From Aureispira anguillae (GTDB lineage: Bacteria; Bacteroidota; Bacteroidia; Chitinophagales; Saprospiraceae), in the NCBI RefSeq assembly GCF_026000115.1, contig NZ_AP026867.1:1085501-1149500 (forward strand): a DNA stretch of 64,000 nucleotides, given 5' to 3'. The notes below the pieces were generated by a model. It had not been told where the DNA came from and did no database searches. It saw nothing but the letters and a program-made list of their open reading frames with translations. Of the stretch, positions 1 to 27,514 are shown piece after piece. Both the position numbers and the translations under genes were made by a program. Position 1 is the first letter of the stretch. Every line of letters begins with the position of its first letter.

Positions 1-485
1 TAAACAGATTTAATCTCCGATCGCATATGATCTCGTTCATAGATGTTGTCTGCGAGTGCCTTATCTGCCCCCGCAGCAATGAGCTCTTGCTCTAATGCTA
101 AAATGGCATCGTGATAGGCTGCTTGGTCTTCCGAAAATGATTCCATGTCTTGCCGCCAATAGTGGCTGTGTACATTCATCAGAAGGACAGTGGGAGTAGC
201 TCCACCTTCTAATAAGACAAAATGTAAGGTATTTTGTTCGCCGCCACCTGTGCCATTCCAGCCCGTTTGCAGAGCAAGGGAGGTCGGTGTTTGTTCAACT
301 AGTTCAGCTTCCCACACATTATCTATGATGCTAATATCACCATCTTGTAGGGTTAGTGTTATTGTTCGACCTAGCATGGCATTAAGCTCATTAGCATAAA
401 TAGCCAGAGGAGGTAATTTAGAATTGTAAGCATAAATCAACGGAGATTGAGATACCATCAACAATAAAAAAAATAAAGAACGCAT
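1..485 (-). CDS. secreted protein of unknown function, C-terminus cut off by window edge
   Basis: An open frame runs from an ATG at 485 leftward off the window edge (about 161 codons visible, no stop). The product starts with a hydrophobic signal peptide (MRSLFFLLLMVSQSPLIYA) followed by soluble sequence, so it is probably exported. The visible part contains a glycine-rich GWNGTGGGEQN stretch and an acidic, helical-looking segment with DMESFSEDQAAYHD. I recognise no family. The upstream region is a long AT-rich spacer shared with the divergent rseP gene. The frame is open throughout and the signal peptide is convincing, so the gene is likely real even though its end is missing. Confidence 0.7.
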   Translation of the reverse strand, partial: MRSLFFLLLMVSQSPLIYAYNSKLPPLAIYANELNAMLGRTITLTLQDGDISIIDNVWEAELVEQTPTSLALQTGWNGTGGGEQNTLHFVLLEGGATPTVLLMNVHSHYWRQDMESFSEDQAAYHDAILALEQELIAAGADKALADNIYERDHMRSEIKSV

Positions 486-21338: not shown

Positions 21339-22103
21339 TTATAATTCTTGAAGCAGTTGTTTTGCTTGTAGCGCATATTTTCCCCTTTCTGAAATGCGTA
21401 ACAATTGTTCCAAAGCCATTTTACTATTGGAGCGATTGCCCTCTTGTAATTCAATTAAGGCTAAATACCAATAGGATTGTTGGGCATAAATACTTTTATT
21501 AAGCGTTAAAACCTGATTTAAATAACCTTTTGCAAGTGCATAGTTTTTTAGTTCTATATTGCTCATGGCTAAATGAAACAAAATGTTCTCATGGCTATTG
21601 TTTGGAGTATTAGCAATCTGAAGTGCTTGCTGTAATTGTTCAATAGCTACCTTATAATCTTTCTGAATGTAGGCATTTATCCCTGTTGTTAAATGGTCAG
21701 AAAGAGGGTGGGGAGTAGATCGCTCTAATTCATCAGAGATATACGTTTGATAGTGAGCCGCAAAAAGTTCTTGACTAGTTTTTTCGGCTTGATTGTACCA
21801 CCAAGCAAAGGTTAAAATCAATAAAAAACTGGCTGCTGCAAGCCAATAATACCATTTTCGAGTGCTAGTGGTCGCACTTTTTTGATGCATCTTTGAAAAA
21901 TCTTCTCCTATAGCAGATAATTTTTTTTCTAAATCAAAGGCCTGTTGATCGGATAGAAAAGCAGCCATTTCTTGATGCAAAGTCACTTCTTGCGCCAAAG
22001 CTGAATCTTTGGCTATTAATTGCTCAAACGCTTTTGTCTCCTCCTTTGTAAGTTGTTGGTTGAGGTAGCGTTCAATTTGTTCAAATTGTTGTTCTTCCGT
22101 CAT
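21339..22103 (-). CDS. membrane-spanning TPR protein, probable anti-sigma factor
   Basis: A 254-aa protein with three parts: a cytoplasmic acidic N-terminal region (residues 1-82) with the FEQIERYLNQQLTKEETKAF segment typical of Bacteroidota anti-sigma-like proteins; one membrane helix at about residues 84-103 (WYYWLAAASFLLILTFAWWY); and a periplasmic C-terminus with two or three TPR-like helix pairs (QKDYKVAIEQLQQAL, LKNYALAKGYLNQVL, EGNRSNSKMALEQLL). It has no zinc-finger HxxxCxxC, so it is not a ZAS-type anti-sigma. It lies 13 bases downstream of the sigma gene in the same operon. The anti-sigma role is inferred from layout and partner. Confidence 0.7.
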   Translation of the reverse strand: MTEEQQFEQIERYLNQQLTKEETKAFEQLIAKDSALAQEVTLHQEMAAFLSDQQAFDLEKKLSAIGEDFSKMHQKSATTSTRKWYYWLAAASFLLILTFAWWYNQAEKTSQELFAAHYQTYISDELERSTPHPLSDHLTTGINAYIQKDYKVAIEQLQQALQIANTPNNSHENILFHLAMSNIELKNYALAKGYLNQVLTLNKSIYAQQSYWYLALIELQEGNRSNSKMALEQLLRISERGKYALQAKQLLQEL

Positions 22104-22116
22104 AATATTTAATGAA

Positions 22117-22698
22117 TTAGCGATTCAACTCTTTATAAAGAACGTCTTCTTTTACCAATTCTAATAATTTCTTTTGGCATTTGTATTTGCGTTTTTTTGC
22201 ATATCCAGCACTTCCTAAGCCCAATTTTTGGGCAATTTCTTCCATGGTTTTTTTAGCAAAAAATAATTTCAAAATTTCTTGACACCCTTCTGATAAAAGG
22301 GAGAATTTTTTGAAAAAAAGCTGCTGTTTATTTCGTTCTTCTATCACTTCAATAATACTCAGATCTTCTTGAATAATGTCCTCCTCTACCAATAAAGGAC
22401 GCAGATCTTTTTGTCGTTTTAGTTTTTGAAGCCAAAGGTTTTTGCATATTCCATAAAAATAGGTGTGCAAACTATACTTGAGCTCAAAATCGGGCGCTTT
22501 AGCCTTTTGATAAACGATCATAATTGCATCTTGAAATAGGTCCTTTGCGTCATCTACTGTCCCTTGGTTTCGAAGTACAAAGGAAACAATTCCACTAAAA
22601 TACTGGGCATAAAACTGGCGTATAACGAAGGAATCTCCTGCCATAATACCATTAAGATAATGATCTGTTGTTGAAGTATTCAAATTGTTTGTCTCCAA
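22117..22698 (-). CDS. ECF-type sigma-70 family RNA polymerase sigma factor
   Basis: A 193-aa sigma factor with region 2 at about residues 25-95 (VDDAKDLFQDAIMIVYQKA is the -10-recognition and core-binding helix region; SLHTYFYGICKNLWLQKLKRQ follows) and region 4 at about residues 130-185 (LSEGCQEILKLFFAKKTMEEIAQKLGL, a helix-turn-helix that ends in AKKRKYKCQKKLLELV). The KRKYKCxKKL end is typical of a Bacteroidota subgroup often found next to TPR or CHAT genes. No extra SnoaL or sensory domain is present, so control must come from a partner, most likely the protein encoded next to it. Confidence 0.88.
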   Translation of the reverse strand: METNNLNTSTTDHYLNGIMAGDSFVIRQFYAQYFSGIVSFVLRNQGTVDDAKDLFQDAIMIVYQKAKAPDFELKYSLHTYFYGICKNLWLQKLKRQKDLRPLLVEEDIIQEDLSIIEVIEERNKQQLFFKKFSLLSEGCQEILKLFFAKKTMEEIAQKLGLGSAGYAKKRKYKCQKKLLELVKEDVLYKELNR

Positions 22699-22820
22699 TA
22701 GCTGTTTGTTTTCTTGGCTTAAATAGGTTGCTCGAAAATAGAGAAAAAAAATAAAAATGCAAATTATTGAATATCATTAAATTATGAATAGCTGTTATTT
22801 TGTATGAAAAATAATTAAAA

Positions 22821-22842
22821 TTTTGGGGTCACCTTTTGGGGG
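22821..22842. promoter_or_regulatory. tandem TTTTGGGG element in divergent promoter region
   Basis: TTTTGGGG at 22821-22828 and TTTTGGGGG at 22834-22842 are spaced 13 bases start to start, in the spacer between the sigma gene and the plus-strand unknown gene. The G-runs stand out against the AT-rich surroundings. It could be an autoregulated ECF promoter or an activator site. No -10 partner is certain. Confidence 0.35.
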
Positions 22843-22949
22843 CTTTGTCAACCAATAAGCAAAACCACTAGTAAAGAGTTAATTAATCAATGTGCACAGC
22901 TTTTTACTAGGGGGATCTTTAAATCATTTTTATTAAAACAATTTATACT

Positions 22950-23372
22950 ATGCCTACAAATATTAAAGGAATCTGGATGATTTTGCAAACAGCAACTGGC
23001 ACAAACTCAGGAATAAAGGATAGCAACCATCTTGAGCTTCAGATCACAACGACGAACTCTGTTGTAAAATTGGAAACCAATAATGCTGCTAGTGGTGCTA
23101 ATGGCCTTGTTCAATCACTGGTTAAAGCCCAAGCCACACAATTTTCTTGGAATGCACAAGGTGGTTATTGGCCAGCAGGAGCTTTGACCGTTGAGAATAT
23201 TAGTTCTTGGAGCTTGGAATTAGTTGCTGCCAATAGCAATGCTTCTTATACGCCACGATGTATTTGGATTATTATGAGAGATGTTGATAACAATTATCAT
23301 CTAGCGGTAGCAGATAGATCTTGGAACAAAAACAAACCTTTGCTCCCTGGGATTGCTCAAGTTATTGGCTAA
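22950..23372 (+). CDS. unknown 140-aa protein, beta-rich, no signal peptide
   Basis: A small soluble protein with alternating short beta-strand-like runs: HLELQITTTNSVVKLE, TQFSWNAQGGYW, LTVENISSWSLELVAA and RCIWIIMRDVDNNYHLAVA. The W-x-L-E-L pattern and beta character are loosely reminiscent of PLAT/C2-type sandwiches, but I would not name a family. It has no signal peptide and is therefore cytoplasmic. It is the first gene after the divergent spacer with the sigma factor, followed by its own terminator, so it is likely controlled from the same region. Confidence 0.65.
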   Translation: MPTNIKGIWMILQTATGTNSGIKDSNHLELQITTTNSVVKLETNNAASGANGLVQSLVKAQATQFSWNAQGGYWPAGALTVENISSWSLELVAANSNASYTPRCIWIIMRDVDNNYHLAVADRSWNKNKPLLPGIAQVIG

Positions 23373-23439
23373 ATCAGATTGAATAAAAAGTAGCAGACGA
23401 AGTACACTGTGTAAAAACAGAATAACTTAACTGTATACT

Positions 23440-23479
23440 AAGAGCAAATTCTATAAATCAAAAAATAGAGTTTGCTCTT
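23440..23479 (+). terminator. terminator of the 140-aa gene
   Basis: AAGAGCAAATTCTAT pairs at 14 of 15 positions with ATAGAGTTTGCTCTT, with a 10-base loop and short T-run. Confidence 0.7.
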
Positions 23480-23627
23480 TTATCTCCGAATTGATTTTAA
23501 TGGTCTCACGAATCTAATACGTCACAAACAGGGATATATAGCACTCGTAACAAGGGCGATACCTAGAACGTGGCTAATAATCCATGAAGAATTATTTTAC
23601 TAAACACTGAAAATAACGATAGTAATT

Positions 23628-24638
23628 ATGAAAAATATAAATATACATGCTGTTTTGGGGGTGATTTTTGTCTTACTGAATCTTCCTTTTTTAGCACAAG
23701 GGCAGAAAAAATGCACTAAATGTGATTCTACAGAAAAAAAGCCTGTCCGAATTCGGATTATTTCCTTTCAAGCAGGTGATCCTACTTTTAAAACAGCTTT
23801 ACGGAATAAAGACAGCATTGCCGTCAATAAATTTGATGTCACTGCAATTTTATATGCTGTAAACAAAGAGGGGGCAGTTTTTGACACAGATACGGTCTAT
23901 AATCATGTGGTTGGAAGGCTGAAGCCCAATGAAAAAGTAACGATTATGTCCTGTTTTGATTTTGAAGGGGAATATATTCCAGACTCTATTCGAGCAACCT
24001 TAATTCTTTACGATACAATAGACTGTTCCATCAATTTTGCGATAGAGGATGATACGGCAACGATTAACTTTGGATCCAGCGCCTCCTGTCCTCATAATAG
24101 TTTCCAGTCTAACAATATACCCTATTTAAAGTCGGGAGAGCCCCTATTTATTCCAGAGGATGGAGATATTGTTGTATTCGCATCGAGAGATGAAACCAAT
24201 CCAAAAGTTTTTTTGGAGGCTATCTTAGATTCGACCACGACAGCAGATACAATGGTATTGGATACGATTAAATTAGTAAGTACTTTTAATTCTCTAAAAA
24301 TGCAGGGTGCAAAATGGAAACTTCGCAAGGTAAAAGAAGGAGGAGATTCTATATTTTATCTACAACCATTGCTTCCTGATAATGATAATTATGTTTTAGG
24401 ACTAAGTGACAGTACTTTTATTTTGGTAGATATAAATAGTGAAAATGCGAATGCTAAGTGGAATCTTCAATTTTTAGAAGCGACCAAAGATAGCAGTAAT
24501 GTTCATCATCTGTATCTTAATGGAGCAGAAGAAGGACAAAAAAACTACCTTTATAAAAAAGAAAATAGTTGTGTTGGAATTACCACTAGCCTTTTAGAAA
24601 AAAAGACAAAATGGTATATTCATAAATTAACTGACTAA
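23628..24638 (+). CDS. secreted protein with probable C-terminal beta-trefoil
   Basis: A 336-aa exported protein (signal peptide ending near LPFLAQGQ, residue 26; then a CTKC motif at about 29-32). The N-terminal half has a beta-sandwich-like pattern with two further cysteines. The C-terminal about 150 residues show a threefold repeat in which each unit ends with K-W-x-aliphatic: Trp230, Trp278 and Trp329 (AKWKL, AKWNL, TKWYI), about 50 residues apart. That periodicity is typical of a beta-trefoil (ricin-B-like or actin-crosslinking-like), usually a sugar- or surface-binding fold. The gene lies 59 bases before the CHAT gene on the same strand. Assignment is by pattern only. Confidence 0.65.
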   Translation: MKNINIHAVLGVIFVLLNLPFLAQGQKKCTKCDSTEKKPVRIRIISFQAGDPTFKTALRNKDSIAVNKFDVTAILYAVNKEGAVFDTDTVYNHVVGRLKPNEKVTIMSCFDFEGEYIPDSIRATLILYDTIDCSINFAIEDDTATINFGSSASCPHNSFQSNNIPYLKSGEPLFIPEDGDIVVFASRDETNPKVFLEAILDSTTTADTMVLDTIKLVSTFNSLKMQGAKWKLRKVKEGGDSIFYLQPLLPDNDNYVLGLSDSTFILVDINSENANAKWNLQFLEATKDSSNVHHLYLNGAEEGQKNYLYKKENSCVGITTSLLEKKTKWYIHKLTD

Positions 24639-24697
24639 ACAGTTGTTGCTGATTATTAATGTTTTTAGGAACAAAGGTGGTTTGAAAATAAAATACG

Positions 24698-27514
24698 ATG
24701 AAAAGAATTTTACCCTTGGTTTGGTTATATTCATTGATCTTATTTCCTCACTTGGGAATTGGTCAATCTGCGGATCAATGGCCAGAATATTGGCTAGAGA
24801 AAGCAGATCAATTGGAGGAGCAAGAGCAATTGGATAGCGCCATCTATTGCCTAAAACAAGCAGCAAATTATGCAAGAAATAGTCAAAATATAGACTGTCT
24901 GACCAAGAGCCAATTAAAACAAGGCTCTTGTTTTTTATATCAAGAGAATTGGGATAGTGCCGTTTATTACTACAACCAATGTATTCATACCGCTCAAAAA
25001 TTTGAAATAAAAAATTCGCTTATTTTAGCGAATGCACATTCCTTACAGGGAGTGGCTTATTATTATTTGGGGGATTTTAATCAAGCAATTGTACATGCTC
25101 AAAAATCATTAGATTATGATCTGATTAATGGAGTAGAACCGAGTAATTTGGCATTGAATTTAGAAAATCTTGCCAATATGTACCGAGAAAAATCTGCTTA
25201 TGATAAAGCATTAGAATATTATCAGCAAGCAATGGCTATTTATAAAAAGGAGGGAGCATCTGCTAAAAAATTACTAGGGCTAACCTACTTAAATATAGGG
25301 GTTTGTTATAATCGGAAGCAACAAAATGAGAAGGCTTTAGCTTATTATAAGCGCTCAAAAGCACAGCTAGAACAGAATCCTAATCCATCCAAGAAACAAT
25401 TGATTAGTCTGTACAACAGTTTTTCTATTGTCTATCGAGATTTGAATGCCTTGGATAAATCCATGAATTATGTTCAAAAAGCGTTAGCATTACAAAAAGA
25501 AACGCCTTATAAAAGAGCAAATACGCTGACTACCTTGGGCTATCTATATTTAAAAAAGAAGCTATACCCAAAAGCTAGAGAGGTCTTAATGGAGGCATTC
25601 GAAATACATCCTGATAAAAAACACCCCAATGTCGCCAAAATACAATTGACACTAGGGCAAAGTTGGGCAGGAGAGAATAAGAAAAAAAAAGCATTGGAGG
25701 CCTATCAAAAGGGAATGATGATTTTGGTACAGGGCTTTGAAAATACAGGAATGAATAACCCTGCTCTCCAAAATTATAATAGCTCTTCACGGAATCTACT
25801 TAAATTATTACATGCCAAAGCAAAGCTCCTAAGCCAAATGGGGGCAGATTATTGCGGGCTGTCCATCGAAACGTATCAGTTGGCATCTGACTTGATTTTT
25901 CAAATGCAAAAGAGTTATCCCAATGCCTCTACACAATTATTATTAGCAAAAACAACAACCCCATTGCATGAAGAAGGTTTTGAGGTTGCTTTTAATGCTT
26001 ATCAAAAAGACAAAACAATAAAAAACTTAAATCAAGCACTTTTTTTTGCAGAGCGCACAAAATCAAAATTACTGTTAGATAATATTGCTACTAAAACGGC
26101 AAAAAAAATGGGAGGTGTACCAAAAGAACTTATCCAAGAAGAACAAAATTTGTATTTAAACTTAGCATTTTATAAAAAGAAATGGCTAGAAGCTGACCGT
26201 AAGCAACAAACGGAAAAAAAACAGCAGCTTCAACAGTATATTTTTGATTTAGATGCAAGGATAGCGCAACTTCAAAAGCGTTTAGCAAAAGAATATCCCA
26301 ATTATTACGAAGATCAACAACAAGCTATTCCTACAGTAGAGGTGGTGCAAGATCAATTTTTGAAATCTAACAAGGAGGTGTTGATCGAATATTTTGTCAG
26401 TCATCAAGAAGTCTATGCTTTTGTGATTCATCCGTCATTTGCTAAGTTAGAACATATCGCTACGAAGACTAGCTTGGAGGTTTTTTTAAGTCGGTTTTGG
26501 GCTAGTTTATTGAACCCTCAAACGAAAATGCAAAATGAAGAAGATGCTTTTAAATATTATGTTATAAATGCTCAAATCTTATACGAAAAGCTATTAAAAC
26601 CATTGATCCCTGAAAAGGTTCAAGAACTATACATTGTTCAGGATGAGCAATTAAGCTTTTTGCCAATGGCAGCATTGTTAAAATCGAATAGTCAAGAGGC
26701 TGGAATGAGCTATTTAGATTTGGATTATCTCGTACATCATTATCGATTTGGGTATAGTTATTCAGCCGCTTTATTGTTGCATAACCTCAGGCATAAATCA
26801 ACGGATTATCAACAATCCTTTCTTGGGTTTGCTCCTTTCGAAACAGTAACCCCAAAAGATAGTTTTAATGCACTTCCTTATTCGCTTAATGAAATTGAAG
26901 AGGCGACCAATTTATTAGGGGGGAACAATTTTATAGGAGATCAAGCTACTTTTGGACAGTTTTGCCAGACTGCTAATGCATCTATTTTACACATCGCTTC
27001 TCATGGTCATGTGAATAGAAGGTATCCCGAATATTCTTATTTAGCATTTAGAGGAGATCAACATTTATATGCTTTTGAAATTCAAAATATAGAGATAGAA
27101 GCAGATTTAGTTGTTTTGAGTGCCTGTGAAACTGGAATTGGGCAATTTGCCTCAGGGGAGGGAACACTTAGTTTAGCTCGATCGTTTATGTATACAGGTG
27201 TTTCAAGTGTATTGATGACCTTGTGGAAGATAAGAGATCGGAGTAGTGCTGTATTAATGAATTACCTCTATCAGTACTTGGCAGAGCATGGTACTTCTAA
27301 GCTAGAAGCATTGAGAGAAGCACAAAGAAAATACCTACAAGTAGATGCTGATCCCAGAACAGCACATCCTTATTTTTGGGCAGCTCATATTCTTTTGGGT
27401 AGCCCTGATGCATCAATGATTAGACCACTGGACCATAGATGGAAATATGCAGGTTGCTGCATGGTGTTGTTAATTGGGATAGGATTTTGGCAGTGGAAAA
27501 AAGGACGAGGGTAA
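24698..27514 (+). CDS. exported, membrane-anchored TPR-CHAT caspase-like protease
   Basis: A 938-aa protein. Residues 1-22 are a signal peptide (ending GIGQS); about 25-380 are multiple TPR repeats (for example YLGDFNQAIVHAQKSL, YDKALEYYQQAMAIY, NEKALAYYKRSKAQL); about 470-540 a charged coiled coil; and about 600-900 a CHAT domain. The caspase-type dyad is intact: HIASHGH with His769 and LSACETG with Cys810, followed by the GEGTLSLARSF segment. Residues 917-933 form a membrane helix before a basic KKGRG tail, so TPR and CHAT should face the periplasm with the tail in the cytoplasm. CHAT proteases cleave specific partner proteins; the adjacent anti-sigma-like protein is the obvious candidate, which is inference. 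Confidence 0.9.
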   Translation: MKRILPLVWLYSLILFPHLGIGQSADQWPEYWLEKADQLEEQEQLDSAIYCLKQAANYARNSQNIDCLTKSQLKQGSCFLYQENWDSAVYYYNQCIHTAQKFEIKNSLILANAHSLQGVAYYYLGDFNQAIVHAQKSLDYDLINGVEPSNLALNLENLANMYREKSAYDKALEYYQQAMAIYKKEGASAKKLLGLTYLNIGVCYNRKQQNEKALAYYKRSKAQLEQNPNPSKKQLISLYNSFSIVYRDLNALDKSMNYVQKALALQKETPYKRANTLTTLGYLYLKKKLYPKAREVLMEAFEIHPDKKHPNVAKIQLTLGQSWAGENKKKKALEAYQKGMMILVQGFENTGMNNPALQNYNSSSRNLLKLLHAKAKLLSQMGADYCGLSIETYQLASDLIFQMQKSYPNASTQLLLAKTTTPLHEEGFEVAFNAYQKDKTIKNLNQALFFAERTKSKLLLDNIATKTAKKMGGVPKELIQEEQNLYLNLAFYKKKWLEADRKQQTEKKQQLQQYIFDLDARIAQLQKRLAKEYPNYYEDQQQAIPTVEVVQDQFLKSNKEVLIEYFVSHQEVYAFVIHPSFAKLEHIATKTSLEVFLSRFWASLLNPQTKMQNEEDAFKYYVINAQILYEKLLKPLIPEKVQELYIVQDEQLSFLPMAALLKSNSQEAGMSYLDLDYLVHHYRFGYSYSAALLLHNLRHKSTDYQQSFLGFAPFETVTPKDSFNALPYSLNEIEEATNLLGGNNFIGDQATFGQFCQTANASILHIASHGHVNRRYPEYSYLAFRGDQHLYAFEIQNIEIEADLVVLSACETGIGQFASGEGTLSLARSFMYTGVSSVLMTLWKIRDRSSAVLMNYLYQYLAEHGTSKLEALREAQRKYLQVDADPRTAHPYFWAAHILLGSPDASMIRPLDHRWKYAGCCMVLLIGIGFWQWKKGRG

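Follow-up and report, generated by a model that had tools for sequence, protein, structure and literature searches.

A TPR-CHAT protease gene linked to an ECF sigma factor and a membrane anti-sigma factor in Aureispira anguillae: a predicted proteolytic switch of the envelope

Gene content and protein architecture of the locus

The stretch of DNA analysed here (the window) comprises 64 kb of the 7.8-Mb genome of Aureispira anguillae, positions 1,085,501-1,149,500 of contig NZ_AP026867.1, and the subject of this study is a group of neighbouring genes within it, which encode an extracytoplasmic function (ECF) sigma factor, a membrane anti-sigma factor with tetratricopeptide repeats (TPRs), two uncharacterised proteins and a TPR-CHAT protease (Table 1). 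The first-pass annotation had read the sigma and anti-sigma genes as a minus-strand operon with a gap of 13 bases, and the uncharacterised pair and the protease gene as divergent from it, and both readings were confirmed by the open reading frames (ORFs) and profile matches. The sigma protein matched Sigma70_r2 with an E-value of 6e-8 and TIGR02937 with 64 bits against a cut-off of 42.9, which places it among the ECF sigma-70 factors.

Table 1. Positions in the window of the genes, domains and residues discussed in the text
Feature	Position	Strand	Basis
Putative M50 site-2 protease (RseP-like), only match in the genome	1024..2283	+	E 1e-57
Membrane anti-sigma factor, 254 aa	21339..22103	-	ORF following the sigma ORF
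Anti-sigma regions: cytoplasmic helical domain 1-74; transmembrane helix 82-104; periplasmic loop 105-132; TPRs 133-254			predicted
Codons of R128 and S129, predicted P1-P1'	21717..21722	-	column conservation, covariation
Transmembrane helix of anti-sigma factor, residues 82-104	21792..21860	-	model helix; homologue hydropathy and charge
ECF sigma factor, 193 aa, TTG start	22117..22698	-	ORF list, profile matches
140-aa protein without family match	22950..23372	+	ORF list, profile scan
336-aa protein, N-terminal hydrophobic segment	23628..24638	+	ORF list; place taken by exported genes in relatives
TPR-CHAT protease, 938 aa, predicted to be exported and held by a C-terminal anchor	24698..27514	+	
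CHAT domain, residues 625-902, after the TPRs	26570..27403	+	E 2e-52; 179 bits against PF12770 cut-off of 24
Glu732, covarying with P1; replaced in 6 of 8 pairs of the M/L type	26891..26893	+	covariation
Catalytic His769	27002..27004	+	H in 106 of 107 linked CHAT rows
Catalytic Cys810	27125..27127	+	C in 106 of 107 linked CHAT rows
Asp847, putative S1 residue for recognition of P1 Arg	27236..27238	+	covariation
C-terminal membrane anchor, residues 914-937	27437..27508	+	model helix; hydrophobic tail by reading

The TPRs of the anti-sigma factor score just under the Pfam cut-offs, and an NCBIfam anti-sigma model covers residues 12-125 with an E-value of 8e-8, below the cut-off of that model. 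The structure model, which was built from a 35-row alignment (A5) and reached a predicted local distance difference test score (pLDDT) of 89.5, contains helices within residues 3-74, a helix at 82-104 over the transmembrane (TM) segment, a short helix at 110-117, coil at 118-132 and TPR helices from residue 133 onwards, and its best PDB matches are TPR proteins. Topology was judged from hydropathy and charge: the net charge before the TM segment exceeds that after it in 86 of 91 anti-sigma factors, and the N-terminus is therefore predicted to be cytoplasmic. This layout fits that of single-TM anti-sigma factors, in which case the N-terminal domain would bind the sigma factor, as the family and the operon suggest.

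In the protease, the CHAT domain scores above the curated PF12770 cut-off and carries the His/Cys dyad, as expected for a CHAT peptidase. The earlier reading of an intact His769/Cys810 dyad was borne out by the conservation of both columns across the linked CHAT proteins, whose 107 rows include a few duplicates (the same gene from two collections). The structure model (26-row alignment A6, pLDDT 86.5, predicted template modelling score 0.83) consists of TPRs, the CHAT domain and the C-terminal helix 914-937, and the 21 PDB entries that match it best belong to Csx29/TPR-CHAT, separase and the transmembrane anti-sigma factor DdvA. By a hydropathy rule, a hydrophobic stretch was found at the N-terminus in 88, at the C-terminus in 89 and at both ends in 78 of 102 linked CHAT proteins longer than 700 aa, counts which are rough because this simple rule misses the tail of the window's own CHAT protein. 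A degenerate sigma-linked CHAT gene without the His/Cys dyad was also observed (L180:5098-7431, minus strand).

Neither the 140-aa nor the 336-aa protein has a Pfam family above cut-off (DUF4898, E 0.002, lies below it), and phmmer comparison with the ORFs of the window, L043-L071 and L101-L220 gave no relative, L221-L300 being outside this search. The 336-aa protein is perhaps an exported cargo or a member of the regulon. The sole M50 match of the genome falls inside the same 64-kb window.

Linkage, candidate cut site and covariation in relatives

A search of 198 genomes of the order with the window's sigma factor gave 135 places, of which 3 belong to the A. anguillae genome itself. Neighbourhoods were taken for 121 of the 132 other places (the remaining 11 are all in family f20) and were classed by the gene next to the sigma gene, linkage being defined as a CHAT gene within 7 kb. 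The results showed that a CHAT gene was linked in 53 of 80 loci, spread over 34 genomes, when the next gene encoded a TM protein shorter than 340 aa, in comparison to 0 of 27 for TM proteins of at least 340 aa, 2 of 8 for proteins without a TM segment and 1 of 6 for loci without an anti-sigma gene. Conserved linkage of sigma, anti-sigma and CHAT genes, which had been set beforehand as a test of the first-pass annotation, was thus found. For loci of the <340-aa class in genomes with known CHAT density, the linkage was 43 of 63 against 1.66 expected; no probability is quoted, since related genomes are not independent. Among named records, a set which partly overlaps the order set (e.g. L221 = L101, L299 = L116), CHAT was within 7 kb in 50 and a C14 caspase alone in 2 of the best 80 of at least 495 loci, which gives 52 of 80 for either protease. 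These records are nearly all from Bacteroidota, and those with linked CHAT include Aquimarina, Spirosoma, Prolixibacter, Marinifilum, Neolewinella and one Chlorobiota metagenome-assembled genome. The orientation of 102 sigma-CHAT pairs was divergent in 49, convergent in 27, same-strand downstream in 19 and same-strand upstream in 7, with L203 (overlapping ORFs) counted as convergent by manual re-sorting of an automatic result of 50 divergent and 26 convergent. The linkage therefore survives rearrangement of gene order.

CHAT matches number 30 in this genome and 44 in one relative, with few or none in others. A single CHAT gene near a single sigma gene proves little with 30 matches in the genome; by reading, a CHAT gene is also present within 7 kb of 2 of the 31 other ECF sigma genes above cut-off, which is about the density expectation, and a SigZ-like gene (L068) and a FecI/FecR pair (L048) beside CHAT genes were taken as chance. 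The genome holds a second copy of the locus, L054, as a tight operon of sigma, anti-sigma, CHAT and CHAT, while L050 and L070 of the same genome have the sigma/TPR anti-sigma pair without an adjacent CHAT gene. Of the CHAT proteins of the genome other than those nearest to this sigma type, 27 were compared, among them the second CHAT of L054; all 27 carry E732/D847 and the catalytic Cys, and 26 of 27 carry the catalytic His; hydrophobic stretches were observed at both ends in 23 of 27.

When the linked anti-sigma factors were aligned, a conserved step was observed in the otherwise variable loop after the TM segment, consisting of aromatic residues, variable residues, R, K or M, and then G or S. 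The signal thus lies in the linker between the TM segment and the TPRs, and a TPR-TPR contact was not retained as the main link between the two proteins. In 99 linked anti-sigma factors, the P1 column holds R in 73, K in 12, M in 5, S in 5, E in 2, G in 1 and D in 1, and the residue following R, K or M (n = 90) is G in 45 and S in 34, i.e. 79 of 90. This [R/K/M]-[G/S] step is the predicted cut site, represented in the window by R128-S129, with R128 in the coil 118-132 of the structure model.

The P1 residue was then found to covary with residues of the linked protease. In a comparison of CHAT proteins with R/K partners and those with M/L partners, restricted to columns whose conservation in the R/K group reached 60%, E732 and D847 differed most. 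Across 98 distinct CHAT proteins, with re-read P1 rows included, P1 R was accompanied by D847 in 76 of 77 and by E732 in 74 of 77, P1 K by D847 in 3 of 11 (E in 5, A in 3) and by E732 in 11 of 11, and P1 M/L by each of the two in 2 of 8 (2 of 7 each without L296). The Fisher p value, with kinship ignored, was 2e-8 for 847 (R vs K) and 2e-6 for 732 (R/K vs M/L). A scan of 279 CHAT columns against the three P1 classes placed 847 first, 767 second and 732 third, and among 66,442 pairs of anti-sigma and CHAT columns, with P1 uncorrected, the pair of 128 and 847 ranked first; in 200 shuffles of the pairing, which do not keep kinship, the maximum over all pairs never reached the value of this pair. 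To account for kinship, either trait was simulated on a CHAT tree built without columns 732 and 847, many deep branches of which are unsure, and in none of six tests was the observed association reached in more than 1 of 3000 runs. The P1 class changed at least 12 times on this tree. After thinning to CHAT proteins less than 60% alike (n = 82), R went with E/D at 732/847 in 58 of 61, K lacked D in 8 of 11 and M/L lacked E/D in 7 of 8, with 2 others. Both the residues of the window (R128, D847, E732) and the second copy of the locus, L054, agree with this rule.

In caspase-fold proteases the S1 pocket is lined by residues that precede the catalytic His and residues that follow the catalytic Cys, and positions 732 and 847 fall in those segments. 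Asp847 may be the S1 residue that reads the P1 Arg. Separase recognises the P1 Arg through an Asp, for which Csx29 has a Lys, D2151 being paired with K670 (PMC9729208). Equating D847 with D2151 was not adopted, since our alignment puts the residue opposite 847 four positions before K670, and only the same segment is claimed for the two.

Proposed switch, alternative explanations and known systems

The linkage, the candidate cut site and the covariation of P1 with CHAT residues support the earlier proposal that the CHAT protease cuts the anti-sigma factor and thereby frees the sigma factor. On this sequence evidence the CHAT protein is probably a dedicated site-1 protease of the anti-sigma factor, although we infer the cleavage itself. 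In the proposed switch, the cytoplasmic N-terminal domain of the anti-sigma factor would hold the ECF sigma factor, and the trigger would be a signal sensed by the TPRs or by the divergent exported proteins. The protease, tethered by its C-terminal helix at the periplasmic face of the inner membrane, would then cut the exposed loop between TM segment and TPRs after Arg128 and before Ser129. About 12 residues separate the end of the CHAT domain from the membrane helix behind it, and about 24 separate the TM helix of the anti-sigma factor from R128 behind it, and the two would therefore meet near the membrane. Loss of the TPR domain may leave a stub that the M50 site-2 protease of the genome could cut, and the sigma factor released in this way would transcribe its regulon, plausibly including the gene or genes between sigma and CHAT.

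Several observations weigh against this proposal. Neither CHAT nor C14 was found within 7 kb in 23 of the 80 loci of the <340-aa class; 13 of these have more than 7 kb on both sides, and some of the others are on short contigs. An R or K at the P1 column is also present in 33 of 49 unlinked anti-sigma factors, so that the residue is not exclusive to linked loci; there the protease may be encoded elsewhere, or the residue may serve another purpose. Alignment A5 has three invariant columns, A91, R128 and W212, at a mean column identity of 27%, but it was made from the window and 34 of 40 candidate rows; L268, L295 and L296, three of the six omitted rows, have no R at column 128, for which reason the 99-row count is to be used instead. 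The P1 residue was re-read by eye in seven of the 99 rows. Of these, L244, L250, L280 and L288 were assigned R, L123 M and L190 L before their CHAT proteins were seen, and L296 was assigned M after its CHAT residue was seen, which changes the column to R 77, K 12, M 7, L 1 and 2 others. Sign tests on well-supported independent pairs had n = 3 for 847 (mean 1.6 in the same direction, 0 opposite) and n = 2 for 732 (mean 0.8 same, 0.1 opposite), both too few for significance. Exceptions to the rule are L154 (M with E732), L190 (L with E732/D847), three cases of K with D847 and three of R without E732. In addition, the co-occurrence of the CHAT tail anchor with the TM segment of the anti-sigma factor was not significant (p 0.12) and was dropped as a sign of shared location; the p value of 0.016 obtained when the cut motif was also required is given no weight, because this motif was partly assigned by hand.

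The best surviving alternative, which we regard as unlikely, is that CHAT is an effector of the regulon rather than its activator, the sigma factor driving CHAT and its exported neighbours and CHAT processing these neighbours, much as a TPR-CHAT protease is said to process bacterial gasdermin (PMC9729208). Many relatives indeed have further genes between sigma and CHAT, and several of these carry secretion signals and encode subtilases that end in a type IX secretion tail, PKD/DUF7619 proteins, cytolysin-fold proteins and a possible beta-trefoil protein, which look like regulon members or signals; the divergent layout of 49 of 102 pairs would also suit shared control. However, 21 of 58 linked pairs have no gene between sigma and CHAT apart from the anti-sigma gene, 18 of the 26 pairs automatically sorted as convergent have CHAT no more than 40 bp from the anti-sigma gene, and an effector role leaves unexplained why a residue of the anti-sigma loop covaries with a residue of CHAT. 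A general periplasmic protease that cuts the anti-sigma factor, with CHAT linked for another role such as a TPR scaffold or sensor, would agree with the R or K found in unlinked anti-sigma factors, but changes at P1 are accompanied by changes at CHAT 847 and 732 and the catalytic dyad is kept in nearly all linked CHAT proteins, so that this explanation is highly improbable. A chance neighbourhood, which the many CHAT genes of the genome and the two unrelated ECF sigma genes near CHAT genes might suggest, is refuted for the family by the excess of linkage over expectation and by the named records from several groups, and is scarcely credible for this locus, where the second copy and the window's own residues fit the P1 rule.

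The proposed activation of the sigma factor by CHAT resembles several known systems. To our knowledge Csx30, the substrate of the protease Csx29, has no comparable TM/TPR layout. Like the type III-E Csx29/Csx30/CASP-sigma system (Craspase), in which Csx30 proteolysis relieves sigma inhibition (PMC10028731; PMC9729208), the locus would join a TPR-CHAT protease to an ECF sigma factor and its anti-sigma factor, and among solved folds that of Csx29 is closest to the window's CHAT protein. Whereas Csx29 acts in an RNA-guided complex, the protease and cut site here are predicted to be periplasmic and membrane-tethered. Csx30 is cut between 427 and 429, with M427 needed (PMC10028731), or after L407 (PMC9729208), while the sites here would mostly be cut after R. 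Craspase also requires a Cas7-11/gRAMP effector and a CRISPR RNA in the locus; by reading, no such gene is present between 17 and 33 kb, where ORFs of 90 aa or more were considered, nor is one present among the nine profile-scanned neighbours, no CRISPR search of the window or genome being made, and the PADLOC models gave matches only from TPR models and solely on the CHAT protein.

The transmembrane anti-sigma factor DdvA of Myxococcus xanthus (PDB 8rot and 8rw5, listed as a CHAT domain-containing protein) was the best PDB sequence match of the linked CHAT profile and ranked 9 in Foldseek for the window's CHAT protein. It is the cognate anti-sigma factor of DdvS (PMC4374960), which controls an antiphage island (PMC12288465). 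In DdvA the CHAT domain is inside the anti-sigma factor, whereas here the genes are separate, and one protein carries the predicted cut site while the other carries the dyad. The RseA/DegS/RseP system of sigma-E has a single-pass anti-sigma factor that is cut first on the periplasmic side (PMC10028731), and an M50 site-2 protease gene is present here too; the proposed site-1 protease differs in that it is a locus-encoded cysteine protease of the caspase/separase fold and not a PDZ serine protease. The example organism of ECF54 is an actinobacterium. CHAT and subtilase genes occur in the conserved ECF54 neighbourhood, as in relatives of our locus, and proteolytic control has been proposed there, but the sigma factor is said there to work without an anti-sigma factor (PMC8999054). 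A further likeness is CalpL/CalpT/CalpS, which reportedly joins protease, anti-sigma and sigma factor in one switch, with a Lon-type protease and a cyclic oligoadenylate trigger, and not in the envelope.

The release of a sigma factor through cleavage of its anti-sigma factor (RseA/DegS, Csx29/Csx30), an anti-sigma factor with a CHAT domain (DdvA) and CHAT genes near ECF sigma genes (ECF54) are thus known already. In the open-licence literature, judged by titles and the starts of abstracts, no description of a CHAT/TPR anti-sigma/sigma module in Bacteroidota was found. What would be new is a widespread form of the switch in the envelope that is independent of CRISPR, divides protease and substrate between two proteins and has a matched cut site. 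If so, one subset of CHAT proteins would gain a substrate, a cut site predicted to one residue and a specificity code (P1 against 847/732), and the site-1 proteases of anti-sigma factors would be extended to the caspase/separase fold. It also suggests that the release of sigma factors by caspase-like proteases may be a broader theme, of which Csx29/Csx30/CASP-sigma is one branch.

Other proteases and further genes at related loci

A C14 caspase was found within 7 kb in 4 of the 27 CHAT-less loci of the <340-aa class, with a profile that was made from these four genes themselves once Pfam had identified them. Among the 27 long anti-sigma factors, a group defined by length and not by tree, 24 carry a fused trypsin-like domain, and such fused proteins are possibly self-cutting. 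The sigma lineage thus tends to come with a protease of one of three kinds. It may be, though we would put this at somewhat less than an even chance, that a Bacteroidota sigma/anti-sigma lineage is wired to interchangeable dedicated proteases (tail-anchored CHAT, C14 or a fused trypsin-like domain), each cutting a matched periplasmic site, and commands variable exported effectors including subtilases and proteins of pore-former fold, which would amount to a CRISPR-independent caspase pathway of the envelope. In the longer anti-sigma factors of L114-L139 and others (alignment A7), mostly of family f20, the trypsin-like domain was observed behind the TM helix, and two named examples of such relatives, L297 and L300, are from Chitinophagaceae.

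Genes with a thiol-activated-cytolysin domain lie between sigma and CHAT at L107:5334-7172 and L111:7294-9156, both on the minus strand. At L198, L161, L188, L189, L199 and L205 the order on one strand is sigma, anti-sigma, a gene of about 700 aa and CHAT; in L198 the gene of about 700 aa encodes a subtilase with a type IX secretion tail, which clusters with similar ones.

Two observations concern the loci of the A. anguillae genome without an adjacent CHAT gene. Beside the sigma/TPR anti-sigma pair of L070, a restriction-modification-like block was observed (L070:5901-11730, plus strand), with a methylase, a specificity-like subunit, an AAA ATPase and an HNH-like protein, as named by reading. 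Opposite the pair of L050, on the 122-kb contig C2, lies a gene for a TPR protein with a HELTH motif (L050:7945-9519, plus strand), which clusters with the M48 peptidase gene of L102.

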